Below are positions 24,142-30,277 of a DNA stretch of 64,000 bases, piece by piece. The position numbers and the translations under genes were made by a program. Positions within the stretch are counted from its first letter, which is position 1; every line of letters starts with the position of its first letter. Origin of the DNA: Bifidobacterium pseudolongum subsp. globosum (GTDB lineage: Bacteria > Actinomycetota > Actinomycetes > Actinomycetales > Bifidobacteriaceae); NCBI RefSeq assembly GCF_000741295.1, contig NZ_JGZG01000005.1, positions 248,001-312,000 on the forward strand. The letters run 5' to 3'. The notes under the pieces were generated by a model, which saw only the letters and a program-made list of their open reading frames with translations, was not told where the DNA came from and did not search any database.

Positions 24142-24190
24142 GATGGGATGATGCATCCAATAACCATGTGAGTACAGGAGGACATGCATC

Positions 24191-24352
24191 ATGGGCATCT
24201 CATCATTCATTGTGACCATCGCGCTTGTGGCGACCACCGCCGTCGCACCGGCCGCTCCGGCCGACATGCGTTCAGTGGAACTGGGAGAGGGCGGCAATCC
24301 GTCCATGGTGGAATATTGTCCCGATTGGGCTCATAAGTTCGGGTTGTGCTAG
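24191..24352 (+). CDS. Small secreted Cys-containing peptide precursor (53 aa)
   Basis: A short gene with a strong AGGAGG (24176-24181) 9 nt before the ATG at 24191. The translation has a hydrophobic N-terminal helix (SSFIVTIALVATTAVAPAA) ending in an APA-type signal cleavage site. A short tail follows, ending EYCPDWAHKFGLC with two cysteines, one of them the last residue. This architecture fits an exported peptide pheromone or small bacteriocin. The gene directly precedes a NarL-type histidine kinase and lies near its likely response regulator and an ABC exporter. I do not recognise a family. The other ATG at 24184 gives an unlikely His-rich product. Confidence 0.6.
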   Translation: MGISSFIVTIALVATTAVAPAAPADMRSVELGEGGNPSMVEYCPDWAHKFGLC

Positions 24353-24374
24353 GCGCCGCCTCTGGCTCGACCGA

Positions 24375-24429
24375 GGTAGGGGGAGAGCCCTTCCTGTAGA
24401 TTGGGAGGGATTCTTTCCCCCCCCCTACC
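24375..24429 (+). promoter_or_regulatory. Long hairpin between the peptide gene and the kinase
   Basis: GGTAGGGGG (24375-24383) pairs with CCCCCTACC (24421-24429), and inside it CCTTCC pairs with GGAGGG. It sits in the 112-bp gap and could act as a partial terminator, or a stabiliser giving more peptide than kinase. There is no T-run directly after it. Confidence 0.45.
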
Positions 24430-24464
24430 ATGAGAAGGCAACGATATATTCTAGGTGGCAGACC

Positions 24465-25607
24465 ATGAAACAGAAACTCATCGATGTTTTGAACCACATC
24501 CAGCATCCCTATCTTTTCCTGGTCATCGCGATGTTCTCGTGTATGCTGCAATTCGAGATATGGAGCTTTGACAAAGCCAACGGCGCCGCAATCATCACCG
24601 CCCTCGTCATCGTGCAGGCCCTGGCGGTCGTATGCTACTGGTTCCCCGTCCAGGCCGCGCTCGCCATCCTCGTGTTCAATGGCATAGGTGAATACGCCAT
24701 TGCCGGGTATGGGGTGTTCACGTCGTACATGCTGCTCATGGCGTTGCTCATCCTGAGCTATAAACTGAGCAACCGTGGCGCCATCGCCGTGTATGTGGCC
24801 ATGATCTGCTACACCATCCTCGAAGGTGTGCTGCGCCCTGAGTTCATGCCTGCGCAAACGGTGTTGGCATTTTGCGCCGGTTACACGCTCATCGCCGTTC
24901 TCGGACGCTTCTTCCGGTGGAACAGCGAACGCAACCGCAAGTATCGCCAGTTGTTGCGTGTGCAATCCGAACTGCGCATCCTGCGCCGCGACCAGATGCT
25001 CGCCGCGCACATCCACGACACCTTGTCGCAGAAACTCTCCGCCATCTCGATGATCGCCCAGTGCCAACACACTGCTGATGGCGAGGATGCGGATGCCTGG
25101 CGGCGGATCCTGGAATACAGCAGCGCCGCCCAGCTGGACATGCGCACACTGATCCGCCAATTGCACGACAGCGGCGAAAGCGAGGAACTTCAGTTCGATG
25201 CGTTCACACGGGACCTGCGTGCGGAAATTGACGAAGACGAACAATACCTGCGCGACAACGGCGTCCAAGGGCATACTGAGGTGCGCATCGATGAGCACGC
25301 GGCCACAACGCGCGTCCTCCAGACCTCGTCGGTCGCCTTGATGGTGGTGCATGAAATCTACACGAACATCTTCAAACACGCCGATTCCGCACAGCCATAT
25401 GAGGTGGCCATCGCCATCAGTGCAGACGGCATCCGCATGGATGCGCGCAACACCATCGCCGCTGAGGGCCAAGTGGTGGAATATGGCGGCAGTGGGTTGC
25501 AGTCCCTCACCACCGTGATCCGTGAACTCGGTGGCACACTGGTTGGGTCAGCGGATGGGGTCCAATGGCGTACACGGGCGTTCATTCCGCTGCAGGAGGC
25601 TGAATAG
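24465..25607 (+). CDS. NarL-family sensor histidine kinase
   Basis: A membrane sensor with about five to six helices in residues 15-150 and no large extracellular domain, as in peptide- or membrane-stress sensors. The HisKA_3 dimerisation helix holds the phosphoacceptor His184 in AAHIHDTLSQKLSAI. An HATPase domain follows with the N-box HEIYTNIFKHA and a late glycine box GSGLQSL. It has 380 aa. The ATG at 24465 follows AGGTGG; the longer open frame overlaps the small peptide gene in another frame and has no domain. Its probable partner is the LuxR-type regulator at 26461-27132. Confidence 0.88.
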   Translation: MKQKLIDVLNHIQHPYLFLVIAMFSCMLQFEIWSFDKANGAAIITALVIVQALAVVCYWFPVQAALAILVFNGIGEYAIAGYGVFTSYMLLMALLILSYKLSNRGAIAVYVAMICYTILEGVLRPEFMPAQTVLAFCAGYTLIAVLGRFFRWNSERNRKYRQLLRVQSELRILRRDQMLAAHIHDTLSQKLSAISMIAQCQHTADGEDADAWRRILEYSSAAQLDMRTLIRQLHDSGESEELQFDAFTRDLRAEIDEDEQYLRDNGVQGHTEVRIDEHAATTRVLQTSSVALMVVHEIYTNIFKHADSAQPYEVAIAISADGIRMDARNTIAAEGQVVEYGGSGLQSLTTVIRELGGTLVGSADGVQWRTRAFIPLQEAE

Positions 25608-25616
25608 GCCGCCCTG

Positions 25617-26324
25617 TCAGCCTAGTGGTTTCCATATCTCCAACCGGGGTTGGAGAAGTGTCGGTGCGGTTGTGGCCATGCAGGTGAGCGTGTCGCTGTC
25701 GTTGATGTCGAAGCTGAACCGGTCGAATGCGTGTTCGCTCGTATCATTCATATACAGGTCGGACTCCTTCCGGTATTGGTCGATCATGTAGTTCTGCGGC
25801 ACCAGGTTCTTGCGGTGCAGGCAATCGACCAAAGCCACCTCGGGATCACCATAGAACTCAGGGTTACCGAGTTTCGTCCGGTACACTAAATCGATGGCGG
25901 CGACCCGCGCGTCTCGACATGCGTTGATGTCATCATTCAGTTTGCGGTTTTGCTCTTCCGTCAGACCTTCGCTTGAAACATATGCTGGTGCGAAGTAGAT
26001 GCCGTTGATGAGGTTCTGCGGTGGCTTGGTGTACCCCTTATCTACCAAGCATTGCCTATAGGACTCCCATGCCGCGCTGTAGGAAGCATACGGAATCTCC
26101 CCATCGTGCTGCAACGCAGCACGTAGGACTTCTTTCTGTGACTCATCGTATTGGTCATCATCAAGCAACGAATCGATAAGGTCGGTCATTCCGCTTGCAA
26201 ATTTTCCGGTATCAACTCCTGTCATGGCATTGTTGGATTCGGCTTCGCTCTTTGAACAAGACGACAGACTGACAACGGAAGCGATGATTGTGATTATTGA
26301 CAGTACCTTGTGAATGCTTCTCAT
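25617..26324 (-). CDS. Putative lipoprotein of unknown function
   Basis: A 235-aa protein with a lipoprotein signal: basic start, hydrophobic core and lipobox VSLSSC with the lipidated Cys23. The mature part is Asp/Glu-rich and has paired Cys-containing segments (YRQCLVDKGYTKPP, then DCLHRKNLVPQ), a layout seen in small actinobacterial surface proteins. I recognise no family. The ATG at 26324 has GAGGGGG 4 nt upstream. It is downstream of the response regulator on the same strand and converges on the kinase gene. Given the nearby exporter it may be a sensor accessory or immunity lipoprotein; this is inference. Confidence 0.75.
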   Translation of the reverse strand: MRSIHKVLSIITIIASVVSLSSCSKSEAESNNAMTGVDTGKFASGMTDLIDSLLDDDQYDESQKEVLRAALQHDGEIPYASYSAAWESYRQCLVDKGYTKPPQNLINGIYFAPAYVSSEGLTEEQNRKLNDDINACRDARVAAIDLVYRTKLGNPEFYGDPEVALVDCLHRKNLVPQNYMIDQYRKESDLYMNDTSEHAFDRFSFDINDSDTLTCMATTAPTLLQPRLEIWKPLG

Positions 26325-26383
26325 GATGCCCCCTCAAATGGTGACTTCTTCGTCGAACACAGTCTGGACATCTCACTGTACCC

Positions 26384-26421
26384 GTTTCTGGGAAGACATG
26401 TGGTTTCTGGGAAGACATGTG
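26384..26421. repeat. Perfect tandem 19-bp direct repeat upstream of the lipoprotein gene
   Basis: GTTTCTGGGAAGACATGTG occurs at 26384-26402 and again at 26403-26421 without a gap. It lies 60-98 bp before the lipoprotein start, a normal place for activator sites. Two identical sites 19 bp apart would suit a dimeric LuxR-type regulator, but a plain duplication is possible. Confidence 0.8.
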
Positions 26422-26433
26422 GCAAACCATGCG

Positions 26434-26456
26434 GTGTAGTCGGCAAAAGACTACAC
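26434..26456. terminator. Hairpin after the response regulator gene
   Basis: GTGTAGTC (26434-26441) and GACTACAC (26449-26456) form an 8-bp stem with a 7-nt loop; on the minus strand the loop contains TTTT. It begins 5 bp past the regulator stop. Confidence 0.5.
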
Positions 26457-26460
26457 ATCC

Positions 26461-27132
26461 TTATTCGCTCCGTCTGTTGCGCCATGCGATGATCGCCTCG
26501 ACCTTTGTGTGCACGCCCAGTTTTGTATAGATGCGCTGTGCATAGGTTTTGATGGTGGATTCGGAGGTGTTGAGCCGTTTGACGATCCAGAGTGATGTCT
26601 TGCCCAGATCGATCCATGTCATGACTTCCTCTTCGCGCGGTGACAGCATGACCGTACGAATTGGATTCACCTGCTGTTCCTTGCTGAGGCGCCGGTGGGC
26701 TTCGGCTGCGCTTTCCGTGGAGAAACGCGCGTCGCGGGGTATTCGGCCTTCACAGAGCGCTATGGCGGCTTGGCAGATGGTCTGCGGTTTGTCCTTGGGC
26801 AGCAGGCATTGCGCCCCACCGTCCAGCATTGCGTCATGGAAGCGGGCGAGGATGAACGAAGTCACTCCCACGAGTACGATTTCGGCATCGTTGGCACGGA
26901 TGCACCGGCAGACTTCGCTTCCGGTCATGCCTTCCAAGGAGGCGTCAACGATGAGCGCGTCCGGTGTGGTGGCTGGCGTCGAGCAGAGGGAGACTGCCCT
27001 GTTCCCGTCGGTCTCTTCCCAGATGACCTCGCTCTGCGGCAGACAGGTACGCATCACATACTGCAAGGCCCCCAAGACGAGGGCATCGTTGTCCACGATC
27101 CCGATTCTGATATGTTTTCCCCGATAGTGCAT
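26461..27132 (-). CDS. LuxR/NarL-type response regulator
   Basis: A 223-aa two-component regulator. The receiver domain has the acidic pocket near D14/D16, phosphoacceptor D63 in IVDASLEGMTG and the conserved Lys113 in LPKDKP. The C-terminal HTH (LSPREEEVMTWIDLGKT, then ESTIKTYAQRIYTKLGVHTK) is of the GerE/LuxR class. The GTSxS region differs from consensus (VGVTSFILA), which is common in the family. It is probably phosphorylated by the NarL-type kinase encoded at 24465-25607, and likely controls the lipoprotein or the divergent ABC genes. Confidence 0.9.
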   Translation of the reverse strand: MHYRGKHIRIGIVDNDALVLGALQYVMRTCLPQSEVIWEETDGNRAVSLCSTPATTPDALIVDASLEGMTGSEVCRCIRANDAEIVLVGVTSFILARFHDAMLDGGAQCLLPKDKPQTICQAAIALCEGRIPRDARFSTESAAEAHRRLSKEQQVNPIRTVMLSPREEEVMTWIDLGKTSLWIVKRLNTSESTIKTYAQRIYTKLGVHTKVEAIIAWRNRRSE

Positions 27133-27472
27133 TATTCCCCCTTCTGAATATGCCCCATCATACCAATGGAGAAGGTGGTTTCAACGGCATATCAGCTCTC
27201 ACAATCGGGTGGATGTCATATAGGTCCCATGCGCAATGCGTGAACCGTGTACGCGGATTGTGCGTGGAGCTTCTTGGCATACAAGGCACGCGAGTGATTC
27301 CTTACTGTCATCTAAAGACGACAACAACGCCCGTGGCATGGGGAATCCCGTGCGGTTCCCTATGCTGGGATGGTATTGGGCATACACACGGCGCGCATGC
27401 CGGTTGCGCCCGAGGGAGGCATACGCGAGACTGGATATGCACTGTGGCATACCATCAAAGCCGGGAGGGGAC
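27133..27472. other. Divergent intergenic region between regulator and exporter genes
   Basis: About 340 bp without a convincing gene. It should contain the minus-strand promoter of the regulator and the plus-strand promoter of the exporter operon. A short inverted repeat, GGGAATCCC, lies near 27340 and TATGCT near 27361 could be a -10. The 19-bp repeat found upstream of the lipoprotein is not seen here. Confidence 0.4.
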
Positions 27473-28560
27473 ATGACGGGGAAACAGCAACGGAACGGCA
27501 CACGCAGGGCCGCCCCTGTACTGACGTGGGTGTTACTCACGGCGGCCACCGTGGCCGCACTCACGGTGGGGCGTGCGCATTGTGGTTGCCGGACCGCGCG
27601 CCCTCGGTGTTGAGCGCCCCAAGCGTGGTGGAATCCGCGCCGGCCAGCGTGCAGGAGTACTCCGGCACGCAACAGGTGAACGTGGTGCCCACGGTCTCCG
27701 GCAACCGCGACTTGCTAGGCAACGCCAGCGGCACCGTGACCGAGAACTGGGCGAACGGCGAGCTGCGTTCCGGCACACGCGCCTATCAGGTCAACGACCG
27801 GAACATCGTGGCGCTGCACACGGCGACGCCCCTGTACCGCGACCTCAAGGTGGGAGACAGGGGAGAGGACGTCCGCTCGTTGAACGACGAGCTCGGCAGA
27901 TTGGGGTATGACAGCGTGCCGCAATCCGCGGAATACAACTGGAACACCGGCAACGGGTGGCGGCAGCTCATGGTGGATGTGGGCAACTCGGACGGCGTTG
28001 CGCCAGAAGACATGGACATGCGTCTTTCGGACACCATGTGGATTCCCGAGGATGTGGTGAACGTACGGGACTGGACGGCGGTCCAAGGCAGCAATGTGCA
28101 GGCGGGAGCCGCATTGGGGATGGTGCCGGGCGGATTGGTGAAGCTCGCGATCCGCAACGGTTCCCCTTCCGACAAGGAACGCACACTGACGGTGTTCGGC
28201 GTTGCGGCGCCACTGCCCGCAGGCTCCACGGAGATCACCGATGCCGGTCTGCTCGCACAGATCGCCGCCACCGAAGGCTACCAAGGCAAGACGCCGGAGG
28301 AACGGGCCGCGGGCATGGACGCCCAGCTCACGCTGAACCAGGCCATACAAACACTGCGGGTGCCCGCCGGCGCCGTGTTCGGCACCGATGGGACCTCGGC
28401 ATGCATTGCCACGGGCACGGCGCGATCGCCCAAGACGGTACCGGTGCGCATCATCACGAGCGAATTGGGCGCGTCGCTTGTGCAGCCTGAACATTTGGAT
28501 GCCAAGGACGTGCATGATGTGCTAATCGGCCCCACGCTGGCCACATTGCGGTGCGGGTGA
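27473..28560 (+). pseudogene. Exporter adaptor protein with peptidoglycan-binding domain, one-base frameshift
   Basis: GGGAGGGG precedes the ATG at 27473, which begins a clean signal sequence (RRAAPVLTWVLLTAATVAAL). That frame ends at a TGA near 27613. The rest of the protein continues in another frame from about 27572: LPDRAPSVLSAPSVVESAPA, then LYRDLKVGDRGEDVRSLNDELGRLGY, a peptidoglycan-binding domain, and an HlyD/MacA-like C-terminal half. Adding one G to the GGGG run at 27568-27571 would join both into one 362-aa protein. It heads an operon with an ABC ATPase and permease. The shift may be a real mutation, a slippage switch or a sequencing error. Confidence 0.75.
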
Positions 28561-28566
28561 TCGGCC

Positions 28567-29178
28567 ATGCGGTTGGTAGTGCATGATCTGGCCCACCGGT
28601 TCCCCGGAACCGACCTGCTGTTCGAACATCTTGACATGACCGTGGACCCCGGGATGACGGTGGCGGTCTGCGGGCCGTCCGGATGTGGGAAGTCCACACT
28701 GCTGTCGATCCTGGCCGGTTGGGAAAAGCCCTATGCGGGCAGTGTGGAGCGCATTGGCATCGCCCGGACCGGCTGGGTGTTCCAGAACCCGGTGGGTGTG
28801 GCGCAACGGAGCGCGTTGGACCACGTGGTGTTCCCGCTGCTCGCCAAGGGGTTCAGCCGTGAGGAAGCGGAGCCACAGGCCTTGGAGGCGATGGGGCTGT
28901 TCGATCTTGACCATGCGACCGGCCGGCGGTTCAGTGAGCTGTCCGGAGGTGAGGCGCAACGGCTCATGCTGGCGAGGGCCGTGTGCTCACGACCCGACAT
29001 GCTGCTTGTGGACGAGCCAACGGCCCAACTGGACACACGGACCGCGCATTCGGTGAGCCACGTGCTGGGCAACCTCGCCAACCAAGGCATGATTGTGCTG
29101 GTGGCCACCCATGATCCTGACACCAGGGACGCCTGCGACCATGTGGTCGATCTTGCACACTACGCGCCCAATGGATGA
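28567..29178 (+). CDS. ABC transporter ATPase (MacB/LolD class)
   Basis: A 203-aa nucleotide-binding subunit, slightly short for the class. Walker A GPSGCGKST, Q-loop VFQNPVG, signature LSGGEAQRLMLARAV, Walker B LLVDEPTAQLD and the switch His in ATHDPDTRD are all present. It lies between the adaptor gene, which stops 6 bp upstream, and the permease gene, which starts 13 bp downstream. The trio is laid out like a MacAB-type exporter with a peptidoglycan-binding adaptor. Substrate unknown; a peptide is plausible given the neighbouring small peptide gene. Confidence 0.93.
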   Translation: MRLVVHDLAHRFPGTDLLFEHLDMTVDPGMTVAVCGPSGCGKSTLLSILAGWEKPYAGSVERIGIARTGWVFQNPVGVAQRSALDHVVFPLLAKGFSREEAEPQALEAMGLFDLDHATGRRFSELSGGEAQRLMLARAVCSRPDMLLVDEPTAQLDTRTAHSVSHVLGNLANQGMIVLVATHDPDTRDACDHVVDLAHYAPNG

Positions 29179-29191
29179 AAGGGGAGGGAAC

Positions 29192-30277
29192 ATGAGACTC
29201 AGGTCGATACTCTCCGAGGCGATGCGCAATGTGGGCGCCGGCAACGCGCACGCATTGGCGTTGTTCGTCGCCGTGCTGCTTGGTGGCATGCTGCTCGGGG
29301 GATACGAAGCCTATACGGTGGTGGCGATGGAACATGAGGCCATGGCACGTGTGCAGGCCATGGCCGACGTGGATACGGTGGTCGGCGGCACCGTGGACGG
29401 TGGTGCATGCGACCGGCTCGCCCAATCGTCAGGCGTTCCCATCGCGCAATCGGGCGCCGTGCGCACCGGTGAGGAGATCACGCCGTTGTCCACACCGAAC
29501 AACGCCCTGCAATCATTCGAGGTCACACAAGGCATGCTGTCGCTCATCGCGTCGAACGGCGCCGTCGCCTCGCCGATCGACACGTCGGGGATCTGGGTGT
29601 CGACCGACGTGGCGCGTGACTTCGGGCTTACGGTCGGCTCAACGTTGGCCACGGACCATGGCAACGCCACCGTGGCGGGCGTCTACCCATGGCCCAACGA
29701 TGGGCGTGACACCCGTTTCGCCTACGCGTTCCTTGTGCCACGCGCCGCCGTCCTAGGCGACTACAACGAATGCTGGATACGCCAATGGCCGCGTTCGGAA
29801 CCGGCGAGCAACCTGCTGTACTCCACGCTGCGTGTGGGCAATGGGCAGAACCAGGCCGGTGTGGTCGCGCTCAACAAGGGTTTCGACGCGCACTACGACC
29901 CCTACGCCACCTACATGGCGCGCACCACCCGTTGGATCCCGTTCCTCGCGGCGCTTCTGGGCCTTGCCATCGGTGTGATCGCCGTGCGCATGCGCAGGCT
30001 CGAATACGCCGCGGCGCTGCATTCGGGGGAGTCAAAGCCGGCGCAATTGCTCGGCATATGCGTGGAGACGCTCGTATGGGCCGGATTGGCCACGGCGGGC
30101 TCATGCGCGCTCATCGCCGCCTACGGTGTGCGCATGGCCGTCGGGGACACCGCGTTGGTCATCGCGACCGCATGCCGTACCCCACTGGCGTTGCTGTGCG
30201 CCGTGGTGCTTGCAGCGCTCGCCAGTGGCCTGTGCGTGCGGCAGTCGCAATTGTTCCGCCTCTTCAAACGCCGGTGA
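29192..30277 (+). CDS. ABC transporter permease (FtsX/MacB-like)
   Basis: A 361-aa membrane protein with one N-terminal helix (LALFVAVLLGGMLLGGY), an extracellular domain of about 200 residues, and three C-terminal helices near 250-350 (FLAALLGLAIGVIAV, ETLVWAGLATAGSCALIAAY, LALLCAVVLAALASGL), the MacB/FtsX topology. GGGGAGGG precedes the ATG at 29192. It partners the ATPase encoded just upstream. The extracellular domain shows no feature that reveals its substrate. Confidence 0.88.
   Translation: MRLRSILSEAMRNVGAGNAHALALFVAVLLGGMLLGGYEAYTVVAMEHEAMARVQAMADVDTVVGGTVDGGACDRLAQSSGVPIAQSGAVRTGEEITPLSTPNNALQSFEVTQGMLSLIASNGAVASPIDTSGIWVSTDVARDFGLTVGSTLATDHGNATVAGVYPWPNDGRDTRFAYAFLVPRAAVLGDYNECWIRQWPRSEPASNLLYSTLRVGNGQNQAGVVALNKGFDAHYDPYATYMARTTRWIPFLAALLGLAIGVIAVRMRRLEYAAALHSGESKPAQLLGICVETLVWAGLATAGSCALIAAYGVRMAVGDTALVIATACRTPLALLCAVVLAALASGLCVRQSQLFRLFKRR

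Follow-up and report, generated by a model that had tools for sequence, protein, structure and literature searches.

In the Agr and Fsr systems (AgrD, GBAP), a small precursor gives rise to a C-terminal cyclic signal that is read by a polytopic kinase without an extracellular domain, and the ligand diverges between close taxa. Phosphotransfer within pairs of HisKA_3 kinases and NarL-type regulators is established chemistry, and for two systems of this kind, DesK and LiaS, we know of no dedicated gene for a small Cys peptide. MgrB, an enterobacterial protein of 47 aa, requires its periplasmic C28 and C39 for action on the kinase PhoQ (PMC8404706). The only cell–cell signalling named for bifidobacteria in the reviews that we searched is AI-2/LuxS (PMC9963693, PMC9611604), which differs from the systems considered here in using a small molecule, with no peptide and no dedicated kinase. 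Peptide-sensing two-component systems are already known; the family of predicted disulfide-ring peptides that we describe below is, as far as our searches went, new.

We analysed a 64-kb stretch of the genome of Bifidobacterium pseudolongum subsp. globosum (hereafter, the window), in which a 53-aa peptide gene adjoins a two-component system, a lipoprotein gene and an ABC exporter (Table 1). Judged from its sequence and that of its relatives, this gene probably encodes a peptide signal for the neighbouring two-component system and belongs to an undescribed family of the Bifidobacteriaceae. An earlier note on this DNA had picked out a gene for a signal-like Cys peptide with a strong ribosome site, and the observation was confirmed: AGGAGG lies nine bases 5' of the start of the open reading frame (ORF), which translates to MGISSFIVTIALVATTAVAPAAPADMRSVELGEGGNPSMVEYCPDWAHKFGLC, with the C-terminal end EYCPDWAHKFGLC. 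In a scan of the 64-kb window, this was the sole ORF of 40–75 aa to combine a Shine-Dalgarno sequence, a hydrophobic N-terminus and a C-terminal Cys pair, and none of 60 Markov-1 shuffled windows yielded such an ORF. The terminator-like hairpin that follows the gene counts as weak evidence, because the region holds four such sites against 2.6 expected.

Table 1 Features of the peptide locus, with positions in the window
Feature	Position	Strand	Basis or remarks
AGGAGG ribosome-binding site of the peptide gene	24176–24181	+	Read directly; kept in G061 and G062
53-aa peptide gene	24191–24352	+	Hydrophobic N-terminus (residues 2–19), linker, C-terminal putative ring C43-x9-C53
Ring codons CPDWAHKFGLC	24317–24349	+	Most conserved part of the family (alignments A1 and A4; column counts)
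Terminator-like hairpin (T-rich tail) after the peptide gene and before the kinase gene	24389–24409	+	z −2.6
Sensor histidine kinase, HisKA_3	24465–25607	+	Pfam; six membrane helices, no extracellular domain (AlphaFold prediction)
Lipoprotein, lipobox Cys23 and four invariant Cys	25617–26324	−	Without Pfam or NCBIfam model; no PDB fold match
LuxR/NarL-type response regulator	26461–27132	−	Pfam Response_reg and GerE
HlyD-like exporter subunit, frameshifted here	27473–28560	+	Conserved in G061, G062, G027 and G038
ABC transporter ATPase	28567–29178	+	Pfam ABC_tran; LolD/bacteriocin-export class by NCBIfam, below cut-offs
ABC exporter permease	29192–30277	+	No Pfam match

The kinase gene starts 112 bp 3' of the peptide gene. 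Its AlphaFold model predicts six membrane helices with short loops preceding the HisKA_3 domain, in line with the earlier description of a multi-helix kinase without an extracellular sensor domain directly after the peptide gene; the LuxR-type regulator and the lipoprotein that had been placed nearby are both present as well. The catalytic half of the kinase is DesK-like by Foldseek, and the locus resembles the DesK and LiaS systems in kinase domain and fold, in its NarL/LuxR type of regulator and in lacking a large extracellular domain. Within the kinase, the membrane part evolves faster than the kinase part (dN/dS of 0.36 versus 0.20).

The likeness to Agr and Fsr lies in the small precursor, the putative C-terminal cyclic-type signal, the polytopic kinase as sensor and the divergence of the ligand between close taxa. 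However, the peptides described here have two conserved Cys and a Sec-like N-terminus, whereas Agr uses one Cys or Ser plus the carboxyl end, and the HisKA_3 kinase with its Response_reg/GerE (LuxR-type) regulator contrasts with AgrC and the LytTR-containing AgrA. A search for AgrB (PF04647) in the window's own genome gave no match, and a control set likewise gave none above the cut-off. A double-glycine leader of the ComC/Blp type was absent before the conserved part in the locus orthologs, the one GG of the window peptide (residues 34–35) not being conserved, and the 203-aa exporter ATPase has an ABC_tran domain and no peptidase domain, in contrast to the peptidase-containing exporters of ComC/Blp-type systems.

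Among the relatives, G061 (B. pseudolongum DSM 20099) encodes a peptide 100% identical to that of the window, and G062 (subsp. globosum) one that is 83% identical. Compared with G062, the gene has 10.5 synonymous and 11.5 non-synonymous changes and no indel (dN/dS 0.32), and 3 of the 11 ring residues differ; the frame is intact in all three of these B. pseudolongum-group genomes. On this dN/dS, taken with the shuffled windows, we rejected a chance ORF. Direct homology searches with the peptide returned nothing beyond the three genomes, but a peptide limited to one species group was rejected once weak matches next to kinase orthologs had led to a wider family. Such orthologs (31–41% identity) occur in B. 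cuniculi, B. choerinum, B. italicum, B. criceti, B. gallicum and G007, and in each of these six genomes an ORF of 47–61 aa, similarly designed and preceded by a ribosome site of its own, lies between an M20 peptidase gene and the kinase gene. The divergent orthologs all terminate in C-x2-[WFIV]-[MAL]-H-x-[LF]-G-[LW]-C, and Met1, both ring Cys, the ring His and the ring Gly are invariant among the locus orthologs. Kinase orthologs thus adjoin a peptide gene in eight other genomes. The earlier note had named a disrupted frame in relatives as evidence against the gene; all eight relatives whose locus was examined have it intact. A second kinase copy in B. cuniculi has a transposase-like ORF where the peptide would be.

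A profile built from the eight locus peptides found further members beside kinases, for example in G109, G053, G027:C7, G042 and G001. The first-class member in G109 (L211:10153-10314; ending ..VYCPIFMHALGMC), from a 1.7-Mb genome of the same GTDB genus, lies beside a kinase and a regulator. On inspection of kinase loci we observed a second and much larger ring class, C-P-x-[WPF]-L-x-W-L-C. A profile of seven second-class peptides (A3) matched 39 of 189 Bifidobacteriaceae genomes in five genera at E ≤ 1e-3, for the second class alone. In 296 genomes drawn from the taxonomic class, A3 gave seven weak matches, none with the terminal ring motif and none near a kinase, and the first-class profile A4 gave nothing except the window itself, so as far as found the family is confined to the Bifidobacteriaceae. 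With about 50 relatives of the same design in the Bifidobacteriaceae, we probably face an undescribed family of peptide signals. Two further peptides beside a kinase and a regulator may represent additional ring classes: one has an unusual end with four Cys (L214, in G059) and the other ends in CGIPIPILC (L215, in G004).

The association with two-component genes extends well beyond the starting locus. Among the 36 second-class matches that were neither in the seed set nor near-copies of it, 33 had a gene for a HisKA_3 kinase and/or a LuxR-type regulator within 2.5 kb and 2 had none (neighbourhoods were read for 35); adjacency in 33 of 36 has a chance probability of ~6e-29, with a deliberately generous 10.8% of each genome counted as near. 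Over all tabulated loci the figure was 47 of 50. The peptide gene may lie 5' of the kinase or the regulator on the same strand, or be convergent with the 3' end of the kinase gene, and this varying order suggests that the linkage is functional rather than positional. A peptide gene is thus conserved beside a kinase and a regulator in independent loci, as expected of peptide-sensing two-component systems. If the peptide were a small, conserved secreted protein with no link to the kinase beyond accidental co-location, this would account for the three loci with neither gene nearby (L187, and L190 and L107, which are both at contig ends adjoining a lipoprotein homolog), but linkage in the other 47, in different gene orders and genomic places, makes this reading very improbable. 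Several close kinase homologs that share the lipoprotein/exporter module have no recognisable peptide, so this type of kinase does not always need one. When peptides were sought at such peptide-less kinase/exporter loci, one possible degenerate ORF emerged (L250:7261-7401), a small ORF with a ribosome site, 5' of a regulator/kinase pair and ending in CPILS, which may be a truncated family member.

The 46 distinct peptides include 33 with C-x7-C and 11 with C-x9-C, with 0–6 residues after the last Cys. Ring residues are conserved and the linker is variable. In the 7-residue class, the first Cys is followed by Pro in 31 of the 33 peptides, the fifth motif residue is Leu in 28 and the seventh is Trp in 32; the 9-residue class has Gly in 11 of 11 and His in 9; these counts are inflated by profile-based searching, of which kinase linkage formed no part. 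The kinase tree splits the ring classes almost perfectly (2 changes versus 10 for shuffled labels), an agreement that may in part reflect shared descent.

At the other end of the peptide, the hydrophobic segment measures ~14–15 residues. Hydrophobic length fails to separate the signal peptides of the lipoproteins from the membrane helices of the kinases, so the segment may serve either secretion or anchoring. An N-terminal helix that stayed in the membrane would let the outer Cys ring touch the kinase of its own cell, in the manner of MgrB and PhoQ; such a tethered modulator would report redox state or provide feedback and would carry no signal between cells. MgrB is similar in size (~47–61 aa), in its single N-terminal hydrophobic segment, in having two extracytoplasmic Cys about ten residues apart and in having a kinase partner (PMC8404706). 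The indistinguishable hydrophobic segments fit a tethered modulator, as does the fairly constant distance from membrane segment to ring, mostly 22–31 residues. On the other hand, the diversity of rings between close taxa and the two fixed ring sizes resemble ligand specificity more, and the linker after the hydrophobic segment is variable. MgrB, moreover, is enterobacterial and acts on PhoQ, whereas here the peptide gene adjoins that of its presumed partner, a kinase without an extracellular domain. We regard tethering, suggested by analogy, as possible though not likely.

We therefore return to a peptide signal as the preferred reading. The peptide would be translated from its strong ribosome site and exported through Sec by its N-terminal hydrophobic segment. 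Outside the cell, the two C-terminal Cys would close an 11-residue disulfide ring (CPDWAHKFGLC in the window), as their invariance and near-fixed spacing suggest, and proteolysis may free the ring from the linker. The ring would then bind the kinase at its six membrane-embedded helices, the only candidate sensor region that it has, and the kinase would phosphorylate the LuxR-type regulator, a pairing suggested by gene order. The regulator's probable target in this species group is the lipoprotein/ABC exporter module next to it, and the peptide gene may be another; no shared regulator-binding site or repeat was found upstream of the peptide, lipoprotein and exporter genes. Signalling through the adjacent two-component system, as first proposed, thus stands as the best-supported reading and is strengthened by the family-wide linkage of peptide, kinase and regulator, while a secreted, cyclic and sensed peptide is what we infer.

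More broadly, and again from sequence comparison, we lean towards the view that widespread, undescribed Sec-exported peptides with disulfide rings (C-x9-C and C-x7-C) serve as pheromones of the Bifidobacteriaceae, are read by six-helix HisKA_3 kinases and form private channels through species-specific rings. The earlier note had recognised no known family, and our searches bear this out: those peptides of both classes that were scanned had no match in Pfam or NCBIfam, and no description of the family was found in the open-access literature searched. Bifidobacteria are dominant and widely used gut bacteria, and the family, if it acts as proposed, would provide the genus with a signalling language of its own kind. 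Many kinases without a sensor domain would thereby be assigned a class of ligands, and the family's rings of 9 or 11 residues could be synthesised directly as ligands and provide inducible gene switches.

The lipoprotein and exporter genes had been viewed as one unit with the peptide, which is right only in part. The lipoprotein family (alignment A5) was found in 65 out of 112 genomes of the genus, with up to 11 copies per genome and frequent tandem arrays, and regularly adjoins a tripartite ABC exporter. Close homologs of the permease number 35, of which 33 have a related lipoprotein gene within 8 kb; a kinase of this type is nearby as well for 17, and a peptide gene for 11. The 33 of 35 indicate that lipoprotein and exporter form a conserved module of their own; some members of the genus have it coupled to the peptide system, and it is a plausible output rather than a required part. 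In several species, peptide, kinase and regulator occur in its absence. The ABC ATPase is clear from Pfam, but no Pfam family matched the permease or the HlyD-like protein, so that the label MacAB-like, also given earlier, rests on gene order and a LolD/MacB-class ATPase.

The same genes bear on another proposal, a bacteriocin or self-immunity function, for which we found no direct support. Some induction peptides are also antimicrobial, and a small Sec-exported bacteriocin, its production controlled by the two-component system and its producer protected by lipoprotein and exporter, would fit the position of the lipoprotein and ABC exporter genes next to the peptide gene and an ATPase near the bacteriocin-export and LolD classes, below cut-offs. 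Yet the locus of B. choerinum (G022), B. criceti (G026) and B. gallicum (G033) retains peptide, kinase and regulator but has neither lipoprotein nor exporter, a lipoprotein homolog is missing from the neighbourhood of most second-class loci, and the peptide is intact both here, where the exporter is frameshifted, and in G007, where it has decayed. Because the constant partners are the kinase and the regulator and not immunity-like genes, we consider a bacteriocin unlikely.

The decayed cassette of G007 (L065:9540-13397) retains an intact peptide and kinase; no regulator was found, remnants of the HlyD-like and permease genes are fused together, and the ATPase gene is gone. In the window, the HlyD-like gene is out of frame, a point that the earlier note had missed: its G-run at 27568–27571 lacks one base relative to G061 and G062, where the gene is intact. 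The shorter run reflects a loss in this strain, a variable tract or an error of assembly. The AlphaFold model of the lipoprotein is good (pLDDT 84) and matched no fold in the PDB. Upstream of the lipoprotein gene lies a perfect tandem 19-bp repeat (26384–26421), which is single-copy in G061 and is thus probably a recent local duplication.
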